Part shown: positions 22,787 through 62,567 of the stretch, in pieces | Position numbering within the stretch: position 1 is the first letter of the stretch | Layout: each line of letters opens with the position of its first letter | Source: an uncultured Cocleimonas sp. | Lineage (GTDB): Bacteria; Pseudomonadota; Gammaproteobacteria; Thiotrichales; Thiotrichaceae | Reading direction: 5' to 3' | NCBI RefSeq assembly: GCF_947495625.1 | Contig: NZ_CANLZW010000006.1 | Span: forward strand, 62,001 to 126,000 | DNA: 64,000 nt | The notes under the pieces: generated by a model | What the model saw: only the letters and a program-made list of their open reading frames with translations | Databases searched by the model: none | Told to the model about the DNA's origin: nothing | Made by a program: the position numbers and the translations under genes

Positions 22787-23233
22787 ATGAAAAGAAGTAG
22801 AAACAAAATTCAATCATTATCACGTTCGCAACAGCTAGGTTTTACCTTGCTAGAAGTTATGGTCGTTGTCGTGATAATCGCTGTTATGGCTGCGGCTGTA
22901 GGCCCTGCTATATTTGATAACTTAAACAAGGCAAATGTAACAAGAGCCGGAACAGATATTAAAAGTATCTCATCAATGCTTGAGGTTTATAGGGCCGAAA
23001 ACTATAACTACCCAAGTACAGATCAAGGTTTAGAGGCTCTGGTAAGTAAGCCTTCAGGCGATCCAGAAGCAAAAAACTGGAGACGTTATACAAAGAAGAC
23101 GCCGATTGATCCATGGGGTAACCCTTATAAATACCTAAGTCCTGGTGCTAAAGGTGATGTTGATATCTATTCATTTGGACCAGATGGTATTCAAAGTGAA
23201 GATGATATTGGTAACTGGCAATTGGATAATTAA
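22787..23233 (+). CDS. gspG: Type II secretion major pseudopilin GspG
   Basis: The 148-residue protein has a prepilin leader cut at QQLG/FTLLEVMVVVVIIAVM, then the GspG core with NYPSTDQGLEALV, PIDPWGNPYKYLSPG and the calcium-loop region GPDGIQSEDDIGNW. GspG forms the pseudopilus shaft that pushes folded exoproteins through the secretin. A GGGGAAG ribosome site precedes the start. It heads a tight gspGHIJ run; gspC-F, K-M are not seen in the window. Confidence 0.96.
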   Translation: MKRSRNKIQSLSRSQQLGFTLLEVMVVVVIIAVMAAAVGPAIFDNLNKANVTRAGTDIKSISSMLEVYRAENYNYPSTDQGLEALVSKPSGDPEAKNWRRYTKKTPIDPWGNPYKYLSPGAKGDVDIYSFGPDGIQSEDDIGNWQLDN

Positions 23234-23251
23234 TCCTGATTCAGGCTCAAG

Positions 23252-23746
23252 ATGAAAATCTCCCAAAAGGGTTTTACCTTAATAGAGATAATGGTAGTAA
23301 TTGTTATTGTTGCAGTTCTTATGGGAGCTGTGACTTTATCATTTCCACCCGTAGGCGATAAATTACTCAAAGAAAATACAGAGCGTTTTAGCGCATTAAT
23401 TTCTCTTGCCCAAGATGAGTCGATTTTACAATCTGCTGAAATCGCTTTAGAAATTGACGATAAAGGCTATGGCTTCTATAGAAATCAAAATAATAGTTGG
23501 GCGGCTTTATCAGAAGCGCCGTTCAAGAAACGCCAACTTCCAGCTGAAATAACGTCGAAGCTATTATTAGATGGGATTTCTACAGATCTGGCAGAACGTG
23601 ATAGTGATTCTCCGCAAATCGTGTTTTTGTCCAGTGGCGAGATGACACCATTTACTTATCAGCTTTTTTACGAAAAAGAGAGTACTTCAACTATAGAAGT
23701 GAGTGCTACAGGTGAAATAAAACAGAGTTTTACCAAAAATGAATAA
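23252..23746 (+). CDS. gspH: Type II secretion minor pseudopilin GspH
   Basis: The 164-residue protein has cleavage site SQKG/FTLIEIMVVIVIVAVLMGAV and a beta-rich C-terminal domain (YGFYRNQNNSWAALSEAPFKKR, IVFLSSGEMTPF) of the GspH type. It lies 18 bp after gspG and overlaps gspI by 8 bp. Confidence 0.92.
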   Translation: MKISQKGFTLIEIMVVIVIVAVLMGAVTLSFPPVGDKLLKENTERFSALISLAQDESILQSAEIALEIDDKGYGFYRNQNNSWAALSEAPFKKRQLPAEITSKLLLDGISTDLAERDSDSPQIVFLSSGEMTPFTYQLFYEKESTSTIEVSATGEIKQSFTKNE

Positions 23747-24110
23747 AAACAACGCCGGTTTTACGTTACTAGAAGTCATGGTTGCGCTATTTATTGTTGC
23801 AGTAGCAATGGGTGGGGCGATAAAAGTCATCGAGAATTCAGCGCAAAATACTTCCAGGATGGCGGACAAGACTTTTGCAAATTGGGTGGCTATGAATAAG
23901 ATCACCGAACTTCGTCTTAATTCTGAATGGCCAAAATTAGGGACAGTAAAAGGTGAATCGGAAATGTCTGATAGAAAGTGGAAGTGGGAGCAAAAGACGA
24001 TAAAAACCGATGACGACAAGGTAAAGCGTGTAGAACTATCTGTTTGGGGTGAGAAAGATAATGATCAAAATCCATTCGTAACCGTTGTTGGATTTTTAAC
24101 CCAACCATGA
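23739..24110 (+). CDS. gspI: Type II secretion minor pseudopilin GspI
   Basis: The 123-residue protein has cleavage site NNAG/FTLLEVMVALFIVAVAMG and the GspI core (FANWVAMNKITELRL, KRVELSVW). GspI nucleates the pseudopilus tip with GspJ and GspK. It overlaps both neighbours (8 bp and 4 bp), indicating coupled translation. Confidence 0.93.
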   Translation: MNKNNAGFTLLEVMVALFIVAVAMGGAIKVIENSAQNTSRMADKTFANWVAMNKITELRLNSEWPKLGTVKGESEMSDRKWKWEQKTIKTDDDKVKRVELSVWGEKDNDQNPFVTVVGFLTQP

Positions 24111-24700
24111 AATCAGCTTCTAAAGGGTTTACGCTTCTCGAGCTTCTGGTAGCCATGAGTATTTTCTCTTTTATGGCAATTACTGCCTATACCGGCTTAT
24201 CTAATATGCTGACTAGTAATCAGGCTATCACGGAGCAGGAGCAGAAACTAAAAAAAATACAACGCACAATGTTGTTTCTAGAGAAAGACATTCGTCAAAT
24301 TGTTAGCAGACCAAGAAGAACGGGATATGGTGCAGATGAGGTTTCTCCTGCATTCTCTTATGGTCTAGATACTGATGATTCTAATGGCGTGATTGAATTC
24401 ACTAAATCAGGCGTAGCAAACCCGCTAGCATTAGCAAAAAGTTCACTTGAGAGAGTGCGCTATGATCTGGAAGATAAAATATTGATAAGGAATAGCTGGG
24501 CGTATGTTGATCATATAGACCTTGAGCCAGTTAAAATGACACTTTTGAATGATGTTGAGTCATTCGAATTGAGGTTGCTGGATGCTAATAATCAATGGAA
24601 ATCTAACTGGAGTGAGAAAAAAATACTGCCTGAGGCTGTTGAAGTAACCCTGGAGCATAAGCATTGGGGCAAAATTGTTAGATTATTTCCAATTCGTTAG
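24107..24700 (+). CDS. gspJ: Type II secretion minor pseudopilin GspJ
   Basis: The 197-residue protein has cleavage site ASKG/FTLLELLVAMSIFSFMA and the GspJ body (RTMLFLEKDIRQIVSRPRR, VRYDLEDKILIRNSW, FELRLLDANNQW). It starts inside the gspI stop (ATGA overlap). The operon stops here: no gspK follows, and the next gene is an RND adaptor more than 300 bp on. Confidence 0.92.
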   Translation: MKSASKGFTLLELLVAMSIFSFMAITAYTGLSNMLTSNQAITEQEQKLKKIQRTMLFLEKDIRQIVSRPRRTGYGADEVSPAFSYGLDTDDSNGVIEFTKSGVANPLALAKSSLERVRYDLEDKILIRNSWAYVDHIDLEPVKMTLLNDVESFELRLLDANNQWKSNWSEKKILPEAVEVTLEHKHWGKIVRLFPIR

Positions 24701-25025
24701 CTTTTAACAAAGCGATAAATACCTAAAAATAAAAAAGTAAGTCTTTCTATCCCTTATGGAACAAGATTTGTGCTGGAAATATGCTAATTTAGAAGCTATA
24801 GTAAAAATAGCAATTTTTATGAACCTTTTCTCTTGTTTCCTCCAAACCAAGAGACTATTTGCATAAAAGAACTGGCAATAGTCTAATTTATAAACGGCTT
24901 TGTCAGATTTGCTTTAACTATCGGGTGGTACTCCTGTAGCTTAGCATCGTGGAATTTTAGGAATTTCAAGAAGCTAAATGCCCAATACAGGAGCCGATGT
25001 GGAATTAATAATAGGAAAACTAATA
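24701..25025. other. Intergenic stretch before the RND-ParA-dynamin operon
   Basis: No ORF, RNA gene or clear terminator is recognised. It should contain the promoter of the seven-gene run that follows. An alternative upstream start for the adaptor at 24978 lies within it. Confidence 0.5.
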
Positions 25026-26192
25026 ATGTTGAAGTGCAAACATCAAAAAATGCTTGTTGTCAGTCTGTGTTTTTTTATTGCTCCAGTTCTCTTTTTATCC
25101 TCGTCGGTTAATGCGGCAGAAATAATTACTGTAAATCGTTCTATTTCAAGTTCCCAAACTGTTTTGGGTAGTACGGTTGTCCCTTATAAAGAGATCACAG
25201 TAACGGCTCAAGTACCTGGTAAAATCACATCTTTAGGTGGAGACGTAGGTACCAGTTTCACTAAAGGTGGAGTGCTAGCAAAAATTGACGATGCTCAATT
25301 GCTGGCTAAAAGAAATACCTTGTGGGCACAAATTACTTCGGCTCAGGCGGCGCTTAAAAATTCTCAAGCGCAATATCAACGAGAAATAGTATCACCAAGA
25401 AGTAAAAGTATTAATGGCATGCCAGGAATGGGAGTGCCATCAATGATGGATATTTTTATGACGCGCCCAATGTACGACATGATGGGCGACTCTAATCAAG
25501 GTTATAACCGTTACTCAGATTTGGTAAGCAGTGCCACTGGAGTGTCTCAGGCTGAAAGTCAGGTAATGATGGCTTGGTCTCAATTAAACGAATTAAATAC
25601 AAAAATTAAAGATACTGTTTCGGTAGCTCCATTCGAAGGCATTATTATGTCCAAGATGGTCGAAGTAGGAGATGCGGTTCAGCCTGGGCAGCCTTTAATG
25701 ACGTATGGCTTTATTAAATATTTGCGTCTTCAGGCGGATGTTCCCTCAATGCTTGTTTCAGGTTTAGCTAAAGGCATGAGTGTTCCAGTTAGAATTAGTA
25801 ATACTAACCCAACAGTTGCCAGAGTTTCTCAAATCTACCCAATAGCGGACCCTTCGCGTCATACAGTCGTTGTTAAATTTGATTTGCCTGTTGGTGTTTC
25901 AGCATCCCCAGGTATGTATGCTGAAATTTTCCTTCCAGATACTACCCCGGGTGGTAACTCGGTAATTACGATTCCAAAAACGGCGTTAATACCCGGCAGA
26001 AGCTTACCTACAGTGTTAGTCGTCGATGAGGAGTCGAAGACATCATCACTGCGTTTAATCAGGGTCGGAGTAGCTCAAAGAGATGGGTTGGTGTCTGTAG
26101 TCTCTGGTTTGAAAGTTGGTGAGAGAGTTATTAATAACCCGCCTGCAGGAGCATCTTCAGGGTGGTATCCCAAAGATTCAGCAGTACTTTGA
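25026..26192 (+). CDS. RND efflux periplasmic adaptor subunit with Met-rich insertion
   Basis: I chose the ATG at 25026: an AGGA ribosome site lies 10 bp upstream and the product then has a clean signal peptide (MLKCKHQKM, hydrophobic core, SSVNA/AEI). The 388-residue membrane-fusion protein has a lipoyl half (VPGKITSLGGDVGTSFTKG), a helical hairpin, the second half (VAPFEGIIMSKMVEVGDAVQPG) and a beta-barrel. The hairpin contains a Met-rich stretch (MPGMGVPSMMDIFMTRPMYD continuing to MMGD, about residues 120-145), unusual for the family and reminiscent of Cu(I)/Ag(I) ligands. It would bridge the RND pump to a TolC-type channel. Confidence 0.88.
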   Translation: MLKCKHQKMLVVSLCFFIAPVLFLSSSVNAAEIITVNRSISSSQTVLGSTVVPYKEITVTAQVPGKITSLGGDVGTSFTKGGVLAKIDDAQLLAKRNTLWAQITSAQAALKNSQAQYQREIVSPRSKSINGMPGMGVPSMMDIFMTRPMYDMMGDSNQGYNRYSDLVSSATGVSQAESQVMMAWSQLNELNTKIKDTVSVAPFEGIIMSKMVEVGDAVQPGQPLMTYGFIKYLRLQADVPSMLVSGLAKGMSVPVRISNTNPTVARVSQIYPIADPSRHTVVVKFDLPVGVSASPGMYAEIFLPDTTPGGNSVITIPKTALIPGRSLPTVLVVDEESKTSSLRLIRVGVAQRDGLVSVVSGLKVGERVINNPPAGASSGWYPKDSAVL

Positions 26193-26258
26193 TTCATTTA
26201 TGGTTCAAATATGGTTTGAAATTATTATAAGTCTAAAAATATAACTGAATAAATAAAT

Positions 26259-29200
26259 ATGAATGATAACGTAGCTGATCAAGGAACAAAGAAAACAGAA
26301 ACACCTAAGCATTCTTTAGGCCTTGCTGGAGGTATGGCGAAAGCCTTTATTACTTCCCCGCTTGCGCTATTGTTATTAATAGCATTCCTTGCCTTAGGTA
26401 TTTTGGGAATGCAAATGACTCCCAGGCAGGAAGACCCTCAAATATCAGTGCCGATGGTTGATATTTTTGTTAGTTATCCGGGGGCAACCTCGTCAGAAGT
26501 TGTTAGTCAGGTAGCTAGGCCTCTTGAAGGGATAATGTCAGAAATCACTGGTGTTAAGCATGTGTATTCTGCTTCTTCACGTGGTCAGGCGCTTATAACT
26601 GTCCAGTTTAAAGTGGGCGAAAACTTTGAAGCTTCTATCGTAAAATTACACGATAAAATTGAATCCAATAAAAATAAAATGCCACAAGGCATTGCTGGTT
26701 TTCTGGTTAAGCCAGTTGGGGTGGATGACGTCCCTGTCGTCTCGATAACACTATGGTCTAATGATGTAGATGATGCATCTTTAAAGCTCGTTGCTCTAGA
26801 TTTATTACAATCTTTACGTGAAGTGCCGAATGCTAGTCAGAGCTTTATTGTTGATGGGCGAACGGATCAACTTCTGGTTGAAATCTTGCCCGAGCGTCTT
26901 GCAACTTATGGTGTGTCGTTAGCGCAGGTTGCAAATACTATAAGAATGGCTAACTCTGAGAGGAATGCCGGATCTGTTGAACCCAATGATAAGTTTGTGC
27001 AGGTAGTCACGGGTTCTTTCTTGAAATCTTCTGCTGATATAAAACGTCTGATGGTAGGGGTTATAGATGGTCGCCCTGTTTATGTGCGTGATGTTGCCAC
27101 AGTAAAAGAAGGCCCAAGTGAAGCCACTAAAATTGTTGGTTACTACACAGGCGCAGCCAGTAACAATGCGGGTAATGAAATTGCACATGGTGCTCCGGCG
27201 GTTACTATTGCAATAGCAAAGAAACACGGTGCAAATGGTGTAGAAGTTGCAGAGAATGTAATAGAAAAGCTTGAGTATTTAAAAGGTCGATTAATTCCAG
27301 ATAATGTACATGTTGCTATTACCAGAAACTATGGTGAATCAGCGAAATCTAAAGTAAATGAATTGCTGTTTAAGCTTGGTGAAGCAACATTGATGGTAAC
27401 CATTTTGGTTCTATTGTTTCTGGGGTGGAGAGCATCCTTAGTTACCTTTATTATTATCCCGGTAGTAATTACGGTTACTGTTTTAGCTGCGTGGATTTTG
27501 GGTCTAACAATAGATCGTGTAAGTTTATTTGCTTTGATCTTTTCTATTGGTATTTTGGTCGATGACGCTATTGTTGTGGTCGAAAATATATATAGGCGGT
27601 GGCTGCTATCAGAGAGCTTAGATGTCGATGTGGCTGTTGATGCTGTCCGAGAGGTAGGAAATCCTACAATTCTTGCGACATTCACTGTAATTGCAGCATT
27701 GTTACCTATGGGGTTTGTTAGTGGAATGATGGGGCCTTATATGTCACCGATTCCAATACTTGGCTCAGTGGCAATGCTATTTTCACTATTTGCTGCTTTC
27801 GCTTTTACTCCCTGGCTAACTAATAAATTTAAGCCAAGCCTTAAAAAACTCAAAGTGATGGAAGAAAAAGAGCACCGTCAGGCGGCTGCTTTAGAAAAAT
27901 TCTTCCGCAAATTAATAATTCCTCTTATTCAAGACAAAAGAAAAGGAAGGTTACTTTTATTTGGAATAATTGGGGTTTTCTTCCTTTGTACAATTCTCTT
28001 TTACACAAAAGGTGTGAAAGTCAAAATGCTGCCTTTGGATAATAAGCCTGAATTTAATATCGTAGTGAATTTTCCGGAAGGCACTGCTTTGCCAGTAACC
28101 GCTAATTTAATAGGCAAAATTGCCGAAAAAATGCAAGCGGTAGAAGAAGTCACAGCTGTTCAAACGTATGCTGGAACTGCATCACCTTTCAATTTTAATG
28201 GTCTCGTAAGGCACTATTATCTAAGAGACAAGCCTTGGCAAGGTGATGTTCAAATTCAATTAACAAATAAGCATGATCGCGATAGATCCAGTCATGAAAT
28301 AGCAGAACAAGCAAGAGCAATGCTAACTCCACTGGCTAGAGAGGTTGGTGCAAGAATTCAAGTGGTAGAAATGCCGCCAGGGCCACCAGTTCTTCAATCA
28401 GTAGTTGCTGAAATATATGGACCAAGTGCTGAAACGCGTAGGCAGGTTGCTAGAGATATTACTGAAATATTTGAGAAAGCACCAAACTTGGGAGATGTGG
28501 ATAATTTCCTTGAAGAGCCTCACGATATTTTACGATTCAAAGTGGATGCTGCTAAAGCACAAAGAAATGGAATTTCAGTTGAAGATATTAATGCAACTTT
28601 AGAAATGGCTATGGGTGGTTTTGTTCTTGGTGATATCAAAAAAGATGCGCTTATAGATCCAACTCCTATAGTTATGCAAATTCCTTTAGCCGCAAGATCT
28701 CAAATAAATAGACTTATACAGTTGCCTGTGAGTAATCGTATGGGCAAAACAATGCCATTGTCTGAACTTGGTCGATTTGTAACTGAGAAGGCTGATCAGC
28801 CTATTTATCATAAAGACTTGCGTGCCGTTGAGTTTGTTACTGCTGAGACGGTCGGAGATTTGGCTGCTCCAGTATATGGAATGTTTCAGGTTCAAGATTT
28901 ACTTGCGCAAGCTAATAATGGAGAAGGTTACAAATCTCCTGACGGTACTTTAGTTACCGGTGGTAGTTGGTTTGGTAGAGAAGATACGGCAGATAAAACG
29001 AATTTTGAATGGGGTGGAGAGTGGACAGTCACATTTGAAACATTCCGTGATATGGGTATAGCCTTTATGGCGGCACTCGTTTTGATCTATATGTTGATCG
29101 TTGGATTATTTGGAAACTTCATTTTACCAGCCATTGTTATTGCTCCAATTCCTCTGACTCTGATTGGTATTATTCCGGGTCATTGGTTATGGGGAGCAGA

Positions 29201-30275
29201 CTTTACGGCGACCTCAATGATAGGATTTATCGCACTGGCAGGTATTGTGGTTAGAAACTCAATTTTGCTTGTGGATTTTTCCAAAAATGCTGTCATAAAC
29301 GAAGGTATGAGTGTCGTTGATGCGGTAATACATTCTTGCGAAGCTCGAACGCGTCCAATCGCTATTACTGCATTTGCTTTGATTGGTGGGTCATTAGTTA
29401 TTATTACAGATCCAATTTTTAAAGGTATGGCCGTATCTTTAGTATTCGGTGGCTTAGTTTCAACACTGTTAACACTTTTAGTTATTCCGTTGGGTTGTAT
29501 TAGTGCAGGAAAGGCTTTGTGTGTAGCGCCTGATGGTAGTGAAGTTACCCCCCCCGACTTTGACCCGGATTTACGAAGAAATCATTCAAATAATGTTACA
29601 AGTGTTTCATCAGGTTACGAAGAGTCATTTTTAGACAAAGTGAAAGATGCTTCGTCAACAATACTAGGTATTGTCCTGACACTAGGCGGATTAATTTTCT
29701 CATTAATTAAGAAGTTGTTTTCTTTAATATTTAGTTTGCTGAAGTCAAATAAAAATGAGAGTGATAACAGTTCTTATTCGGCTAAAACAGAGTCTATAAA
29801 AACTAATGATTCAGTTGTTGTAGCAAAGAAAAATACTGAAGAGTCAGGTGACGTTCTTAATGACGTTAGTAATCTATCCAAAAAAACGAATAAAACTACT
29901 GAAGAAACGCCAAAGCTAAAGGCAGCAACTAAGTCAGAAGCAACAACCAAGCCCAAAGCTACAACCAAGCCAAAAGCTGCAACCAAGCCAAAAGCTGCAA
30001 CCAAGCCAAAAGCTGCAACCAAGCCAAAAGCTGCAACCAAGCCAAAAGCTGCAACCAAGCCAAAAGCTGCAACCAAGCCAAAAGCTGCAACCAAGCCAAA
30101 AGCTGCAACCAGGCCAAAAGCTGCAACCAAGCCAAAAGCTGCAACCAAGCCAAAAGCTGCAACCAAGCCAAAGGCAGCAACCAAGCCAAAGGAAGATAAA
30201 GGGCTTACGGAGAATTCAGTTAGTTCCAAAACAAAGCCAAAACGTAGAGGGATACGTTTAAAAAATGATATATAG
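26259..30275 (+). CDS. RND efflux permease with extra hydrophobic segment and Lys-rich repeat tail
   Basis: The 1338-residue protein carries a complete RND permease over about residues 1-1095: TM1 after SLGLAGGMAKAF, the porter start MTPRQEDPQI, the TM4 proton-relay pair in SIGILVDDAIVVVENIYRRW (D435, D436) and the TM10 region GIVVRNSILLVDF. The family normally ends near 1030-1050 residues. Here a further 240 residues follow: an acidic linker, a hydrophobic stretch (about 1132-1162, LGIVLTLGGLIFSLIKKLFS), then a Ser/Thr/Lys region and about 14 copies of KAATKP, ending in KPKRRGIRLKNDI. The tail would be cytoplasmic unless the added stretch spans the membrane. The transported substrate is unknown. 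Confidence 0.9.
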   Translation: MNDNVADQGTKKTETPKHSLGLAGGMAKAFITSPLALLLLIAFLALGILGMQMTPRQEDPQISVPMVDIFVSYPGATSSEVVSQVARPLEGIMSEITGVKHVYSASSRGQALITVQFKVGENFEASIVKLHDKIESNKNKMPQGIAGFLVKPVGVDDVPVVSITLWSNDVDDASLKLVALDLLQSLREVPNASQSFIVDGRTDQLLVEILPERLATYGVSLAQVANTIRMANSERNAGSVEPNDKFVQVVTGSFLKSSADIKRLMVGVIDGRPVYVRDVATVKEGPSEATKIVGYYTGAASNNAGNEIAHGAPAVTIAIAKKHGANGVEVAENVIEKLEYLKGRLIPDNVHVAITRNYGESAKSKVNELLFKLGEATLMVTILVLLFLGWRASLVTFIIIPVVITVTVLAAWILGLTIDRVSLFALIFSIGILVDDAIVVVENIYRRWLLSESLDVDVAVDAVREVGNPTILATFTVIAALLPMGFVSGMMGPYMSPIPILGSVAMLFSLFAAFAFTPWLTNKFKPSLKKLKVMEEKEHRQAAALEKFFRKLIIPLIQDKRKGRLLLFGIIGVFFLCTILFYTKGVKVKMLPLDNKPEFNIVVNFPEGTALPVTANLIGKIAEKMQAVEEVTAVQTYAGTASPFNFNGLVRHYYLRDKPWQGDVQIQLTNKHDRDRSSHEIAEQARAMLTPLAREVGARIQVVEMPPGPPVLQSVVAEIYGPSAETRRQVARDITEIFEKAPNLGDVDNFLEEPHDILRFKVDAAKAQRNGISVEDINATLEMAMGGFVLGDIKKDALIDPTPIVMQIPLAARSQINRLIQLPVSNRMGKTMPLSELGRFVTEKADQPIYHKDLRAVEFVTAETVGDLAAPVYGMFQVQDLLAQANNGEGYKSPDGTLVTGGSWFGREDTADKTNFEWGGEWTVTFETFRDMGIAFMAALVLIYMLIVGLFGNFILPAIVIAPIPLTLIGIIPGHWLWGADFTATSMIGFIALAGIVVRNSILLVDFSKNAVINEGMSVVDAVIHSCEARTRPIAITAFALIGGSLVIITDPIFKGMAVSLVFGGLVSTLLTLLVIPLGCISAGKALCVAPDGSEVTPPDFDPDLRRNHSNNVTSVSSGYEESFLDKVKDASSTILGIVLTLGGLIFSLIKKLFSLIFSLLKSNKNESDNSSYSAKTESIKTNDSVVVAKKNTEESGDVLNDVSNLSKKTNKTTEETPKLKAATKSEATTKPKATTKPKAATKPKAATKPKAATKPKAATKPKAATKPKAATKPKAATKPKAATRPKAATKPKAATKPKAATKPKAATKPKEDKGLTENSVSSKTKPKRRGIRLKNDI
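29946..30192 (+). repeat. 18-bp tandem repeat coding for KAATKP
   Basis: About 14 units of 18 bp (AAAGCTGCAACCAAGCCA) run in frame at the 3' end of the RND gene. Units are nearly identical at DNA level, with an A-to-G change giving TRPK in one. Such near-identity suggests recent expansion and length variability. Confidence 0.95.
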
Positions 30276-30292
30276 AATAGGTGTTTATAGAT

Positions 30293-31267
30293 ATGAATGA
30301 TGCTAAAAAAGGAATTACTACTGCAGTCATTGCAACAGTAGTGACCTCTGCGATGATACTGATGAGTGGCGCAGGTGTTGCAGATAATAGTCAGTCTTCA
30401 GAAGGTAAAGATGAATCTAAAAGTATTGAAAAGACAACTATAGAAATTGTACAAGAAAATAATGTGACTACTGAAGTCATAACAACTGAGTCATCAATAA
30501 ACTCTGAATCGGGTAATGTTGCAACTTCAAATAATAAAGATGTATCAATCGTGCGTATACCTCCACCTCCTGGTCCTTTTTCGGAGAAAGAAGCTGAAAC
30601 CTTGGTTGTGCCAAAAGCTCCAGAGCTATCTGCTCCACCTGAAGCACCTAAGCAGCAATCAGCAGTTGGGGTGTCAGTAGTTCCTGAAGCGCCAAAAAAG
30701 GTAGTTGAAGCACCCGTTCAGAAAGAAGCAACGCCAGTAGCTCCCAAACCTATGGTAAAACCTGAAATAAAGTCAGTTGAAACTAACGCACCTGAACTAA
30801 CAACTCAAATTCCTAAACAGCCATTTGCTCCGGAAGTTCGTAGTTTAAAACCTGAACCAATAAAGTCTCCACAACTACTAAATGACAAATTAATAACGAA
30901 CCAACAAGTACCAAAGACTCCGGTTGCTCCGCAGGTTAATACTTTGCAAAAACCATCACCAAAGACAAATAGCAATGGTCAACCGATTTGGATGCAGATG
31001 CCAAGCGACCCAAATGGTGTGAGATATATGCAGCAATATAGGTATATGCCAATGCCTGTATATCCGAACTATCATTATCCACAAGCTCCACAATATAATG
31101 GTGGTTATTATTTAGCACCTAATCCTAATCAATGGATGCAAGGAGGTATGCAGAGGCCTGCGCAACAAAATAGGCAGCAAAATAGACAACAGCATATGCA
31201 ACAGAAAAATATAGGACAGAATCAATCTGCACCAGATGCAAATGAGCAAAAAGGTTTAAATAAATGA
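30293..31267 (+). CDS. Unknown Pro/Gln-rich exported or membrane-anchored protein
   Basis: This protein is not recognised. From the ATG at 30293 (a GTG at 30281 is less likely) it is 324 residues. A hydrophobic segment at about residues 8-30 (GITTAVIATVVTSAMILMSG) could be a signal peptide or anchor. The rest is low complexity: Ser/Thr/Glu-rich to about 85, then Pro/Ala/Lys-rich with PPPPGPF and many KAPE/PEAPK units, then a Tyr/Met/Pro/Gln-rich end (YRYMPMPVYPNYHYPQAP, QQNRQQNRQQ). It starts 17 bp after the RND stop and overlaps the ParA-like gene by ATGA. It may be a flexible spacer or scaffold in the envelope. Confidence 0.7.
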   Translation: MNDAKKGITTAVIATVVTSAMILMSGAGVADNSQSSEGKDESKSIEKTTIEIVQENNVTTEVITTESSINSESGNVATSNNKDVSIVRIPPPPGPFSEKEAETLVVPKAPELSAPPEAPKQQSAVGVSVVPEAPKKVVEAPVQKEATPVAPKPMVKPEIKSVETNAPELTTQIPKQPFAPEVRSLKPEPIKSPQLLNDKLITNQQVPKTPVAPQVNTLQKPSPKTNSNGQPIWMQMPSDPNGVRYMQQYRYMPMPVYPNYHYPQAPQYNGGYYLAPNPNQWMQGGMQRPAQQNRQQNRQQHMQQKNIGQNQSAPDANEQKGLNK

Positions 31268-31884
31268 TTACGGTAATAGGTAATTTAAAAGGTGGTACAG
31301 GTAAAAGTACCGTCGCCTTTAATTTATCTATATGGGTGGCTACAAGAAGAAATGTACATGTTTCTATTTATGACTTAGATCCACAAGCTACTATAACGGA
31401 TGCTTTAGAAATTAGAACTGAGGATGGCCATATGCCAGCTTTAGAACCGATTCATTTCGTCAGTCAGCTTGGTAGTGAAGGTAAGCATACAGAAGTAATT
31501 GTCGATATTGGTATCTCAGATGCTGAGGCGATGAACGCAGCCATTCAACGTGCAGATAGAATAGTTATTCCTGTTGCCCCAAGTCAGGCTGATGTTTGGT
31601 CAACACAACGATTTTTAAAATTAATTAGTAATGTCACCAAAAGTGGATCTGGACCAGAAGTAATTGGATTTATGAATCGTTCTGATACGCATGCAGCTGT
31701 AAGAGAAACAGATGATGCCTTTGAAGCTTTAAGTAGTTTAAAAGGAATTAAAATGATAGAGCCTCGGCTTTATCAAAGAACTGCATATAGACGCTCATTT
31801 AGTGAAGGATTAGCGGTATTTGAAATGGACCCTAAATCTAAAGCTGCGGCAGAAGTAGAAGAATTAGGAGAGCTATTATATTAG
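31264..31884 (+). CDS. ParA/MinD-like P-loop ATPase
   Basis: The 206-residue protein has the deviant Walker A motif GNLKGGTGKST at about residues 6-16 with the signature Lys, switch I as YDLDPQAT near 40 and Walker B as VIVDIGISD near 79. IPVAPSQADVWSTQ follows. It is short and lacks the N-terminal DNA-binding domain of plasmid ParA, resembling orphan ParA-like positioning ATPases (for example those placing chemotaxis arrays or carboxysomes). No ParB is nearby. Its ATG overlaps the previous stop, so it is made with the Pro-rich protein. A link to the Lys-rich RND tail or to nucleoid DNA is possible but inferred. Confidence 0.85.
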   Translation: MITVIGNLKGGTGKSTVAFNLSIWVATRRNVHVSIYDLDPQATITDALEIRTEDGHMPALEPIHFVSQLGSEGKHTEVIVDIGISDAEAMNAAIQRADRIVIPVAPSQADVWSTQRFLKLISNVTKSGSGPEVIGFMNRSDTHAAVRETDDAFEALSSLKGIKMIEPRLYQRTAYRRSFSEGLAVFEMDPKSKAAAEVEELGELLY

Positions 31885-31954
31885 TTTATACTAGAATAGT
31901 ATTTCTAGTATAAAATTGTGTAATAGAAATTCAAAATTTAAGGAGAATAAATAA

Positions 31955-32944
31955 ATGTATATTGTTCGTTGGTTAATGGGTCATCCTATTATTGCAACAT
32001 GGTTTGTTGGTGCAATAGCAATTCTTTTATCTATCAGTAATAGTGGTGGAGATAAAAAGGACCTGCATGTAGAAGACCATGCTGCAAATCAAGAACAGGT
32101 TGTTACTACTGATTCAACTAAATCATTAGATTCTCCTTCTGCTGTAACTTCTGCTTTGATCGAATCAGATGAAAAGGCGGTAACTGCAAAAGAATCGGCA
32201 GAAGTCGAGACTGAAGTTGTAGAAATGGTTGAGACTGCGACTGCAGAGCCCGTAAATACCGAGATAACAACAGAGTCATCAGCTACAACCGAGAGTCAAG
32301 GTGCGACAGTAAATGACGCGCAAGCAAATTCGGTCGTAGTAGAAGAAGTTGTCACTGAATCAACGGTTGATTCTACAGTTGCCACTAGTCGATCATATCC
32401 TGACGGATTAGTTGCTGATACAACAGCTCCTGCGGTTGTAGAAAAAACTGAAGTTGAAGTTACTGAAGCTGCAGCTGCAGAAGAAACTCCAGCAGCCAAT
32501 GAAGTTGTTACTGGTACAGAAAATCAATCCGATGTTGCTGTAGCAGCAACCGAAGCTGCTTCAACTATCGAAGAGACACCAAAACCTGAAGAAGCACAAG
32601 CAGATTCAGAAAGTATTCAAGACCTGGGGCAATCAAGTACTGAAGAAATGCTCTTGATGGCCCGCGAAGCTTATTGGAATAACGGTTTAGAAGAAGCTTC
32701 TCAAATATACATGCAATTAATTGAATTAGAGCCAACGGTGATAGAGCATCGTGGTGAGTTAGGCAACGTTTATTGGAGACAAGGTTATCCAAAAAAAGCG
32801 GCTGAACTTTATTCTGAGATTGCTATTCCCATGATTGAGCAGGGCAACTCTGAAAGAGTCGCGAATATGATTGGTTTTATAGGCTTGTTTTACCCGGATA
32901 GAGCTGCAGAGATACACAAGAGATTGCAAGCTACAATACATTAA
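31955..32944 (+). CDS. Membrane-anchored acidic protein with C-terminal TPR-like repeats
   Basis: The 329-residue protein has an N-terminal transmembrane segment (HPIIATWFVGAIAILLSIS, about 10-28). A roughly 190-residue Glu/Val/Thr/Ala-rich low-complexity region follows. The C-terminal helical domain (about 222-325) contains TPR-like units: MLLMAREAYWNNGLEEASQI, HRGELGNVYWRQGYPKKAAE and the end IHKRLQATIH. Function unknown. The acidic middle is a natural counterpart for basic partners such as the RND tail, but both would need to face the same compartment. An AAGGAG site precedes the start. Confidence 0.75.
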   Translation: MYIVRWLMGHPIIATWFVGAIAILLSISNSGGDKKDLHVEDHAANQEQVVTTDSTKSLDSPSAVTSALIESDEKAVTAKESAEVETEVVEMVETATAEPVNTEITTESSATTESQGATVNDAQANSVVVEEVVTESTVDSTVATSRSYPDGLVADTTAPAVVEKTEVEVTEAAAAEETPAANEVVTGTENQSDVAVAATEAASTIEETPKPEEAQADSESIQDLGQSSTEEMLLMAREAYWNNGLEEASQIYMQLIELEPTVIEHRGELGNVYWRQGYPKKAAELYSEIAIPMIEQGNSERVANMIGFIGLFYPDRAAEIHKRLQATIH

Positions 32945-32961
32945 CGAAACATTAGGAAAAT

Positions 32962-33693
32962 ATGGCTAAGAGCGAACTACATAGAGATTACATTCTTGAA
33001 ATGGAAAATGAGCTTCAAGAATTCGAAATGAAGGCTGAAGCAACTCACAAGCGTATGCAAATGCTTGTGTATCCAGCTATGGTTGCGTTCTTTGTGCTCT
33101 CTGCGTTTGGTTTTTTTCTTATCTATTCTTTAACGTCTGACGTAAATCGAATGGCAGATACCATTTCTCATATGAGTGGTTCTCTGGATGACAACATGAG
33201 TTCAATTTCTGGTGATATGAGTAATATGTCAGTTAAAATGGATAGCTTAGTCGATTCTACAGATAGCATGTCGGGTAACTTGACGAATATGACTCAGAAT
33301 ACAAATGAAATGGTAACGAGTATTGGTGGGATGAGAACCGCTACTTACGATATGGCAGCTTCTACCAATAATATGCAGCGTGACATGTGGAGTATGAATA
33401 AAAATATTTCTACACCATTAAGCTTTATGAATAACTTCCTACCATGGAAAAATAGCCAGAGCATGCCTTTCCCAGGCTCTAGAGCACCATTGCCACAATC
33501 TTATTTTGCTTATCCTGCAGAACAACAAACACCAGATTATAGCCAGGATATTCCAATGCCTGCTCCGGTATCGCCTCCGGGTTCTAATTACCAAATGCAG
33601 CAAGCGCCCATGCAGCAGCAAGTGCCTAACAATCAAGGTTCAGCCGTAATAAACACTCCCTACCTAACATTACCTGCTATTTCTATGAACTAA
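32962..33693 (+). CDS. Unknown membrane-anchored Met-rich coiled-coil-like protein
   Basis: The 243-residue protein is not recognised. A charged N-terminus (ELHRDYILEMENELQEFEMK) leads to one transmembrane segment at about 33-57 (YPAMVAFFVLSAFGFFLIY). A segment of about 100 residues follows with Met, Ile and Leu in near-heptad spacing (MSGSLDDNMSSISGDMSNMS) that could form a parallel coiled coil. The C-terminus is Pro/Gln/Met-rich (MQQAPMQQQVPNNQ), like that of the protein encoded at 30293. It resembles signalling or scaffold proteins with a helical stalk, with no known domain. It starts 17 bp after the TPR gene. Confidence 0.7.
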   Translation: MAKSELHRDYILEMENELQEFEMKAEATHKRMQMLVYPAMVAFFVLSAFGFFLIYSLTSDVNRMADTISHMSGSLDDNMSSISGDMSNMSVKMDSLVDSTDSMSGNLTNMTQNTNEMVTSIGGMRTATYDMAASTNNMQRDMWSMNKNISTPLSFMNNFLPWKNSQSMPFPGSRAPLPQSYFAYPAEQQTPDYSQDIPMPAPVSPPGSNYQMQQAPMQQQVPNNQGSAVINTPYLTLPAISMN

Positions 33694-33764
33694 GTTTAAT
33701 CGCTTGGTTTTACCCGTTTTAACCTTTAATACCAGATGTCAAAAGTGACTCGGAAGGAAATTTC

Positions 33765-35198
33765 ATGACACCCGCAAAGAGAATGCAAGACCGCCTTGAG
33801 CTTTTGCAGAAGCATCTTGAGACCGAAAATCCAGTATTAGTTTCTGTAGTAGACCGATATAGAAAACTCGATAAGATTTCTCAAAAAATGGGTTTGTTAG
33901 GGGCAGATCAGTCATATGCAACTCAGATTTCATGGTGGCCACTGGTTTCAATTTTAGGAACTTTCTCAGCCGGTAAATCAAGTTTCATCAACTCATATTT
34001 GGGACTTAATGTTCAAGACTCAGGTAATCAGGCAGTCGATGATAAGTTCACGGTTCTCACTTACAGCAGAGATTCAAAAGTACGCACACTACCCGGAATT
34101 GCTTTAGATGGTGATCCTCGTTTCCCTTTTTATCAAATAAGCGAAGACATTGAATCTGTTACTCAGGGCGAAGGCTCACGAATAGATAATTATTTGCAAA
34201 TGAAGGCAACACCAAGCGAAAAGCTTCGTGGGAAGATTGTTATCGACTCTCCAGGTTTTGACGCGGATGAGCAGCGAAAAGAAACCTTAAAACTGACTGA
34301 TCATATTATTGATCTTTCAGACTTAGTGTTAGTACTGTTTGATGCAAGACATCCAGAGCCAGGGGCAATGCAAGATACTCTAGAGCATCTTGTGCAAGGT
34401 TCACAGAAGCGCAGTGATAACAGCAAATTCCTATTTATCTTAAACCAGATAGATACATCTGCGAATGATGATAATATGGAAGATATTGTTGCTTCATGGC
34501 AAAAAGCCTTGGTACAAAGTGGTTTAAATGCGGGTCGTTTTTACGTTATCTTTAATACTGACTTAGCAACTCCGGTTCAAAATGAAGCGGTTTGGGATCG
34601 TTATTTAAACAAGCGAAATAACGACTATGCAGAAATATCTAAACGCATGGAAGATATAGATGTAGAAAGAGTCTATCGTATTATCGGCAGTATGGAATCA
34701 CTCTCGAATCAAATTGAACAACAAGCAGTGCCACAAGTGAAAATGGCAATGCAGCGCTGGAAGAAAAGAGTGTTAATCACTGATATAGTCGTTTTCGTGC
34801 CTATAATATTAGGTTTAATCACTCTTTCTGTGATTGCTGGTTATTGGCAAGGAATGGTATTTAATCCCCCATGGTTAGATGCTTTAAAACAAAATAAAAT
34901 ATTAGGAATCGGAGTGTTAGTAGCTGTGGCCGTAATCTTTTATTTGATCCATTTGATGGTTCGCTCAAAGTTAGTAAACGGTGTTGCAAAAAAGCTAAGT
35001 ACTGATGAGCCTTATGGAAATATCGAAAATGCTTTTAGAAAGAATACGAGTTGGTGGCGTGGTATTTTCAGAAAGAACCCAGTTGGTTGGGGTACAGGCG
35101 TACGTAAAAGACTAGATGGTATACGTAGTGATATCGATAAATTCGTACAAACATTGAATGATCGATATACCAGTCCGTCGGGCAAAGAAGACGCTTAA
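33765..35198 (+). CDS. Dynamin-like GTPase with C-terminal membrane segments
   Basis: The 477-residue protein has a dynamin/EHD-type GTPase domain: G1 GTFSAGKSSFIN at about 65, G3 as DSPGFDADEQRKE near 165 and G4 as LNQIDTSAND near 226. Two transmembrane segments follow at about 335-357 (VVFVPIILGLITLSVIAGYW) and 376-400 (LGIGVLVAVAVIFYLIHLMV), then a short basic C-terminal tail. Bacterial dynamin-like proteins remodel or fuse membranes and often act in pairs; this is a single gene. It closes the seven-gene run, with an inverted repeat pair 100 bp after its stop. Confidence 0.85.
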   Translation: MTPAKRMQDRLELLQKHLETENPVLVSVVDRYRKLDKISQKMGLLGADQSYATQISWWPLVSILGTFSAGKSSFINSYLGLNVQDSGNQAVDDKFTVLTYSRDSKVRTLPGIALDGDPRFPFYQISEDIESVTQGEGSRIDNYLQMKATPSEKLRGKIVIDSPGFDADEQRKETLKLTDHIIDLSDLVLVLFDARHPEPGAMQDTLEHLVQGSQKRSDNSKFLFILNQIDTSANDDNMEDIVASWQKALVQSGLNAGRFYVIFNTDLATPVQNEAVWDRYLNKRNNDYAEISKRMEDIDVERVYRIIGSMESLSNQIEQQAVPQVKMAMQRWKKRVLITDIVVFVPIILGLITLSVIAGYWQGMVFNPPWLDALKQNKILGIGVLVAVAVIFYLIHLMVRSKLVNGVAKKLSTDEPYGNIENAFRKNTSWWRGIFRKNPVGWGTGVRKRLDGIRSDIDKFVQTLNDRYTSPSGKEDA

Positions 35199-35300: not shown

Positions 35301-35368
35301 AAAAAAGTGCCTATAAGTAGGGGGGTGTATTTAATTTAATACACCCCCCTACTTATAGGCACTTTTTT
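35301..35368. terminator. Perfect 31-bp inverted pair of the dispersed repeat (copies 7a and 7b)
   Basis: Copy 7a (35301-35327, +) and copy 7b (35342-35368, -) plus flanking bases form two identical 31-bp arms around a 6-base loop (TAATTT), with A6 at one end and T6 at the other. It lies between the dynamin gene and hemL and would be an exceptionally stable hairpin terminator, or a REPIN-like unit. Confidence 0.85.
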
Positions 35369-61553: not shown

Positions 61554-62567
61554 TTATGAAGTATGTGAAGCAAGTTCCTCTTGCACTTCCGGTAAGGTAA
61601 GTAACAACTCTTTAACTTCTGCAATATTTAACTGATTTGTATTGTCTGAGGTGTAATCCTCATTGGGAATATCAATATCACCTTCAGAAAAATATTTTTT
61701 ATAGTTTAAATCTCTACTATCCATGCTGATCTGATAGTAATCACCATGATCAATTGAGCGGGATAGTTCTTCGGCCGATGCTAGGGCCTCATACATCTTT
61801 TCACCGTGACGAACGCCAATCATTTGTTGTTCCACATCGGAGTTAAATAATTCGCATAAGGCCGTGGCAAGGTCAGAAACGGTACAAGCAGGTGCTTTTT
61901 GAATGAAAATATCACCCTGAATAGCATGTTCAAAAGCATAATTAACTAAATCTACAGATTGAGGTAAAGACATTAAGTATCTAGTCATTTGAGGTGCAGT
62001 AATGGTTAGAGGGGTGCCTTCTTTGATGCATTTGATGAATAACGGAATGACTGAGCCTCTGGAGTACATAACATTGCCATAACGAACACAGGATATAACT
62101 GTTTCATCCTGATCTAAATTTCTAGCATGAGATTGAGCTACCTTTTCCATCATGGCTTTACTCATACCCATTGCATTTACTGGATAAACCGCTTTATCTG
62201 TACTTAAACAAACAATACTTTTAACTTGATTTTCAACGGCGGCACGAATTGTATTATCACTACCTTGAATATTGGTCAGAACCGCCTGCATGGGGAAAAA
62301 TTCACAAGATGGAACTTGTTTCAAAGCACCTGCGTGAAAGACATAATCAATACCTTTCATTGCAGATTTGATACTTGCGTAATCTCTTACATCTCCAATG
62401 TAGAATTTTAAGCGGTCATCATTGTAGTTTATACGCATATGCTCTTGTTTGGTTTCATCTCTGCTGAAAACTCGAACTTCGGCGCAACCTTTAGAGAGAA
62501 GACTATCAACCATTGTTTTACCAAAAGAGCCAGTACCGCCAGTAATTAATATTTTTTTATTTAGCAT
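61554..62567 (-). CDS. capE: UDP-GlcNAc 4,6-dehydratase/5-epimerase CapE/FnlA
   Basis: The 337-residue soluble SDR has ILITGGTGSFGKTMVDSLL, YVFHAGALKQVPSCEFFP and the active-site segment STDKAVYPVNAMGMSKAMME with Met in the Tyr position. It starts the three-step path from UDP-GlcNAc to UDP-L-FucNAc. Order capE-capF-capG agrees with the Staphylococcus and Pseudomonas (WbjBCD) gene sets. It is preceded by a GT2 gene 61 bp away. Confidence 0.95.
   Translation of the reverse strand: MLNKKILITGGTGSFGKTMVDSLLSKGCAEVRVFSRDETKQEHMRINYNDDRLKFYIGDVRDYASIKSAMKGIDYVFHAGALKQVPSCEFFPMQAVLTNIQGSDNTIRAAVENQVKSIVCLSTDKAVYPVNAMGMSKAMMEKVAQSHARNLDQDETVISCVRYGNVMYSRGSVIPLFIKCIKEGTPLTITAPQMTRYLMSLPQSVDLVNYAFEHAIQGDIFIQKAPACTVSDLATALCELFNSDVEQQMIGVRHGEKMYEALASAEELSRSIDHGDYYQISMDSRDLNYKKYFSEGDIDIPNEDYTSDNTNQLNIAEVKELLLTLPEVQEELASHTS

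Follow-up and report, generated by a model that had tools for sequence, protein, structure and literature searches.

In a stretch of 64,000 nucleotides from an uncultured Cocleimonas sp. (positions 62,001 to 126,000 of contig NZ_CANLZW010000006.1; hereafter the window), we identified a cluster of seven genes that, with chances we put at about even, encodes a single assembly that spans the envelope and is linked to sulfur globules in the periplasm; a ParA-type ATPase would position this assembly via the tail of an RND pump, and its dynamin-like GTPase would remodel the membrane. The previous work that we found on the placement, enclosure, and inheritance of such globules concerns coat proteins only, and the cluster supplies named candidate genes as well as a ten-residue candidate peptide for globule organisation.

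All seven open reading frames are located on the plus strand between positions 25026 and 35198 and are separated, in order, by gaps of 66, 17, −4, 70, 17, and 71 bp, the negative value reflecting an ATGA overlap of the Pro-rich gene with parA at 31264–31267. The adaptor ATG lies at 25026, with a second in-frame ATG at 24978, and the use of a GTG start at 30281 would shorten the gap before the Pro-rich gene from 17 to 5 bp. Downstream of the cluster, hemL and a sigma-32-like gene were read from the sequence. The inverted repeat at the end of the cluster, 3′ of the GTPase gene, is perfect and carries a T run on either strand; the terminator scan revealed 23 terminator-like sites compared to 8.8 expected in shuffles, and nine of the 23 corresponded to the RND tail repeat. 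An earlier, sequence-only reading had described the genes as co-directional with gaps of at most 71 bp, one ATGA overlap, and a strong inverted repeat at the end, all of which was confirmed. The annotated features are as follows:

25026–26192, plus strand: RND periplasmic adaptor (membrane fusion protein) with signal peptide (HlyD_D23, E 9e-14; TIGR01730 RND_mfp, E 5e-37)
26259–30275, plus strand: RND permease of 1338 aa with an AcrB/TriC-type core and a long C-terminal extension (ACR_tran, E 3.5e-146)
29649–29741, plus strand: hydrophobic stretch (RND residues 1131–1161), possibly a membrane-lying or re-entrant helix (hydropathy; similar stretch in most relatives)
29913–30190, plus strand: 18-bp tandem repeat in the part encoding the RND tail, 15.4 copies (93% matches), translated as Lys-rich (KPKAAT)n (repeat analysis)
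30243–30272, plus strand: peptide RRGIRLKNDI at the C-terminus of the RND permease, predicted to dock on ParA (cross-locus motif comparison)
30293–31267, plus strand: Pro/Gln/Met-rich secreted protein that has a signal peptide and the motif PPPPGPF (30557–30580) (ORF reading)
31264–31884, plus strand: small ParA-type ATPase with deviant Walker A KGGTGKST (CbiA/ParA, E 6e-11; small-ParA model NF041546, E 2e-36, below the model cut-off)
31955–32944, plus strand: acidic protein, probably periplasmic, with a membrane anchor and a TPR-like domain conserved at its C-terminus (TM 6–30; domain conservation)
32962–33693, plus strand: membrane coiled-coil protein with a short N-terminus, TM at about 35–60, a long helix, and a Pro/Gln-rich tail (predicted structure; alignment)
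33765–35198, plus strand: GTPase of the dynamin superfamily with a double TM segment at its C-terminal end (Dynamin_N, PF00350, E 4e-16, above cut-off)
35311–35358, no strand: bidirectional intrinsic terminator separating the cluster from hemL (inverted-repeat search)

The order adaptor, RND permease, Pro-rich protein, ParA, TPR protein, coiled-coil protein, and GTPase was found to be kept across the 22 Thiotrichaceae loci with RND and GTPase genes, with adaptor, TPR, and coiled-coil genes present in 22/22 and ParA in 21/22. The relative G001, which agrees with Cocleimonas flava DSM 24830, belongs to the same genus as the window genome. Most loci with RND and GTPase genes from other families have a matching gene set, and many further families of Gammaproteobacteria have the same order, with a secreted Pro-rich protein in third position. 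When named genomes were searched with a ParA profile, similar clusters were also found in other Gammaproteobacteria, including records labelled Thiohalomonas, Sedimenticola, Thiolapillus, and Lucinoma symbiont. The conserved neighbourhood of ParA-like, dynamin-like, and RND genes, for which a search had been suggested earlier, is thus present in Thiotrichaceae and beyond. On the whole, homologues were not scattered independently over related genomes, apart from the GTPase, which also occurs alone: about half of the sampled GTPase loci were without the remaining cluster genes, 34 of 90 GTPase-bearing genomes had no ParA, and 9 of 65 ParA genomes had no GTPase. The GTPase is thus distributed more broadly than the cluster, but since the sampled loci with RND nearly always have the GTPase nearby, the cluster represents a real unit. 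A plasmid origin was rejected, as no GTPase match was obtained in 72,556 plasmids.

The core of the RND permease comprises residues 1–1087, with 6vej as its nearest solved relative (E 8e-64). The relay aspartate pair is retained in the motif LVDDA near residue 435, so that the pump would appear to be active. ORF and family searches revealed no outer-membrane channel gene within the cluster, which is compatible with pump function, since many RND pumps use an unlinked channel. Apart from that, the pump may be an anchor as much as a transporter.

In the cluster copies of the permease, the extension past residue c. 1087 is of low complexity, very variable, and mostly disordered. The (KPKAAT)n repeat of the window copy is not preserved in the close relative Cocleimonas flava, and the tail is fast-changing and possibly length-variable; a small antisense ORF (29774–30229) was discarded as the complement of this repeat. 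The end of the tail is constant, with the motif R-R-G-I-(R/K/Q)-L-K placed mostly 9–15 residues before the stop; as a rule, the next residues are an acidic one and I/L. Its occurrence was counted in a sample of 92 non-redundant RND sequences, L242, L243, L244, and L233 being left out of the analysis due to loci that reach contig ends. The motif was present in 80/80 copies whose genome has ParA, namely 77 with motif and ParA directly detected and three apparent exceptions, two with the motif in a shifted frame (L125 and L205) and one with ParA located on another contig (L200). It was found in 0/4 ParA-less cluster copies (L056, L211, L222, and L213, from at least three lineages), whose genomes revealed no ParA orthologue (best match below 62 bits). 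The probability of this split arising by chance is near 5e-7, calculated over sequences that are related and thus not independent. The motif was also absent from the close non-cluster paralogues L239–L241 and the more distant L245. As partners of ParA-family ATPases generally act via short basic peptides in disordered termini (PMC10241942, PMC12462528, PMC12204374), the pump is most simply read as the partner of ParA, with RRGI(R/K/Q)LK as the predicted docking peptide; those cited for known systems are N-terminal, whereas the RND motif is C-terminal. The tail is presumably cytoplasmic, as favoured by the basic residues after the hydrophobic stretch in many relatives, although residues 1131–1161 could form a 13th TM helix, in which case the motif would lie outside the cytoplasm. 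Gene order and the ParA-linked tail motif support the suggestion, made in the sequence-only reading, of one unit in which the ATPase positions an envelope-spanning complex and the low-complexity proteins serve as scaffolds; the link to sulfur globules had been missed there.

Regarding the remaining proteins, 96 loci were checked for PPPPGPF, of which 39 have it at the position of the Pro-rich gene; it was absent from all 901 other recognised genes. Given this limited occurrence, the motif was rejected as a general marker for the secreted protein and not used to argue homology throughout. The acidic membrane protein gave a weak Pfam TPR match (E 0.008 or worse, below cut-off), though its C-terminal domain is conserved. 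The model of the coiled-coil protein revealed a single helix (residues 3–157) with mostly high pLDDT and a disordered tail. Several genera of Thiotrichaceae also have stand-alone paralogues of this Met-rich protein at sites outside the cluster (L070–L072, L074, and L075, on contigs G034:C29, G021:C8, G012:C8, G036:C104, and G015:C59, respectively). The GTPase comprises 477 aa with TM segments at 341–366 and 376–404, and a Foldseek search with its predicted fold ranked EHD4 (E 9e-12) above bacterial dynamins and mitofusin. In several families, a secreted protein of about 260 aa without any Pfam family above cut-off is encoded between RND and ParA or TPR (L146:9090-9884, L130:9125-9889, L206:9212-9994, and L211) and is an unnamed component of the system. 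Outside Thiotrichaceae, the coiled-coil or GTPase gene is often preceded by an inserted gene for a 196-aa membrane protein (L146:11825-12415, L192, L203, and L205); the L146 protein harbors a DUF302 domain.

The connection to sulfur globules emerged from loci outside Thiotrichaceae, in which extra secreted ORFs sit between RND and ParA. Some of these in-cluster products matched the sulphur globule protein family PF17228, above cut-off in L206 (E 6.5e-15) and L150 (E 6e-7) and below cut-off in L146 (E 0.001), and PF17228 matches at most about 3 kb from ParA were obtained in 14 sampled genomes. We determined co-occurrence in 369 genomes of the class, spread over families, with statistics that ignore phylogeny. 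A ParA orthologue was found in 65 of them, PF17228 in 55, dsrA in 117, and the GTPase in 90, the last number resulting from a search seeded by the GTPase alone. PF17228 occurred in 49/65 genomes with ParA compared to 6/304 without (p c. 4e-40). Restricted to dsrA-positive genomes, the numbers were 43/54 and 6/63 (p c. 3e-15), so that ParA tracks globule proteins beyond sulfur oxidation alone. All 55 PF17228-positive genomes had ParA or the GTPase, and 46 of the 49 double positives carried a PF17228 match also away from ParA, which argues that the overlap is not solely due to in-cluster genes. In addition, SgpD of Allochromatium vinosum was localised on globules by mCherry fusion, and its gene adjoins one for a hydrophobic/amphiphilic exporter (PMC10386293).

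Several observations speak against the globule reading. Its weakest point is the window genome, which harbors dsrA but in which no protein of the PF17228 family was detected; nor does the Pro-rich protein of the window belong to this family. In Thiotrichaceae, the matches to PF17228 are weak, and none is linked to the cluster. Of the 65 ParA-positive genomes, 16 lacked a match to PF17228 and 11 a match to dsrA. Globules in many species also appear randomly placed (PMC10386293).

Natural variants of the cluster would fit a globule-related system with ParA as an add-on. In genus g4, by elimination among the GTDB genera listed in PMC10532065 Leucothrix, adaptor, RND, ParA, and coiled-coil genes are lost from this locus, and Pro-rich, TPR, and GTPase genes are kept. 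Sulfur inclusions are described as a common trait of Thiothrix, Thiolinea, and Thiofilum in a statement that does not include Leucothrix (PMC10532065). G037, probably the sulfur depositor Thiofilum, has kept the cluster with both ParA and the motif absent, showing that ParA is not essential. In the Thiolinea-like G041, a ParA relic with an internal TGA lies between the Pro-rich and TPR genes (L060, G041:C17:23934-24131), and RND and coiled-coil genes are lost from the locus as well.

Based on these findings, we propose that adaptor and RND permease would form the membrane-spanning core of the assembly, with the Pro-rich, TPR, and coiled-coil proteins on the periplasmic side beside the globule coat. 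On the cytoplasmic side, RRGI(R/K/Q)LK would dock on and stimulate nucleoid-bound ParA, whose gradient would set the spacing of the complexes along the cell, and with it that of the globule sites, and would share them between daughters. The membrane-anchored dynamin-like GTPase may bend or tether the inner membrane at sites of globule growth. That a cytoplasmic ParA gradient would position and share out a mineral inclusion across a membrane, with the RND tail as transmembrane handle and the dynamin shaping an inner-membrane pocket, is a tentative idea, which we hold to be possible if on the doubtful side; if true, the sulfur globule would qualify as an organelle that is actively organised.

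The main rival to the globule model is a sulfur-related transporter that is merely distributed by ParA. The closest RND paralogues (L239–L241) are tail-less with no ParA beside them. In L241 (2310–11104), the pump is located beside SoxYZ, and in L239 (4020–13584) and L240 (4999–15023) beside genes for an SQR-like flavoprotein and a Gly/Asn-rich secreted protein that by eye resembles the in-cluster coat proteins, in each case followed by cydAB. The tail-less paralogue sits in a sulfur-respiration locus, which counts in favor of the globule model as well. This location, the retained relay aspartates, and the association with dsrA favor a pump that moves a hydrophobic or sulfur-bearing compound or guards the envelope from polysulfide; the link to globule proteins would then reflect shared physiology and regulation, not globule placement. 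However, the PF17228 association within dsrA-positive genomes and the globule coat genes inside the cluster argue against this explanation, and the dynamin-like GTPase and scaffolds are unexpected for a plain pump, so that we consider it unlikely, though by no means negligible.

A positioning system for another envelope machine unrelated to sulfur, e.g., the type II secretion system, could be suggested by the gspGHIJ-type genes read from the sequence directly upstream of the cluster (22787–24700 in the window) and found there in nearly all Thiotrichaceae. Since this neighbourhood is specific to Thiotrichaceae, with other neighbours and no gsp genes beside the cluster elsewhere, a role in type II secretion was rejected, and in view of the strong link of the cluster to globule proteins we regard the whole explanation as improbable. 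T2SSK-like matches were located on other contigs of the window genome, so that its secretion genes seem to be split.

The Walker A motif KGGTGKST, of the deviant type KGGxGK(S/T) expected of ParA/MinD positioning systems, is invariant across the ParA alignment. Finally, the closest solved structure is plasmid ParF, which would suit an ATPase for the partition of DNA (chromosomal or once plasmid-borne) whose gene was inserted into the operon of a pump unrelated to it; this is very improbable, given that no ParB/ParG-type partner was detected among the neighbouring products (Pfam/NCBIfam), that the position of parA is conserved over many families, and that the tail motif co-occurs with ParA. A carboxysome (McdAB) reading was rejected along with DNA partition due to missing partner genes, as RND, TPR, coiled-coil, and GTPase genes, and no McdB or carboxysome genes, lie beside parA.

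In agreement with the sequence-only reading, we found no described system with this gene set in the open-access literature, nor any publication linking these genes together or connecting ParA or dynamin to sulfur globules. With McdAB and other ParA/MinD cargo systems, the cluster shares a small ParA-type ATPase beside cargo-linked genes and, if the docking prediction holds, a partner with a short basic peptide at a disordered terminus (PMC10241942, PMC12204374). It differs in its predicted partner, an RND permease with a C-terminal peptide, in a predicted cargo across the membrane, in the dynamin-like GTPase, and in the absence of mcdB and carboxysome genes. ParABS and ParF–ParG are related via ParF as nearest structure, but the cluster carries no ParB/ParG-like gene. 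Like the tripartite pumps AcrAB, TriABC, and CusBA, it encodes adaptor and permease with relay aspartates; unlike them, it has no channel gene and a permease with a long variable tail of conserved end. The GTPase resembles bacterial dynamin-like proteins, EHD, and mitofusin in its Dynamin_N domain and predicted fold (EHD4, a bacterial dynamin pair, BDLP, mitofusin), but is only 477 aa in length, with a C-terminal double TM segment and a different gene context. Similarities to A. vinosum SgpA–D comprise PF17228 members in related clusters, secreted Pro-rich proteins, and the SgpD gene beside an RND (HAE) exporter gene, whereas the components named in the SgpD paper (PMC10386293) are coat proteins alone, with no mention of ParA, dynamin, or any positioning apparatus. 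If our proposal is true, ParA-type positioning would extend to trans-membrane cargo and an RND pump would gain a structural role. Altogether, the parts are of known kinds, and the novelty would lie in how they are combined, in a pump that carries a predicted docking peptide at its C-terminus, and in the cargo predicted for the system.
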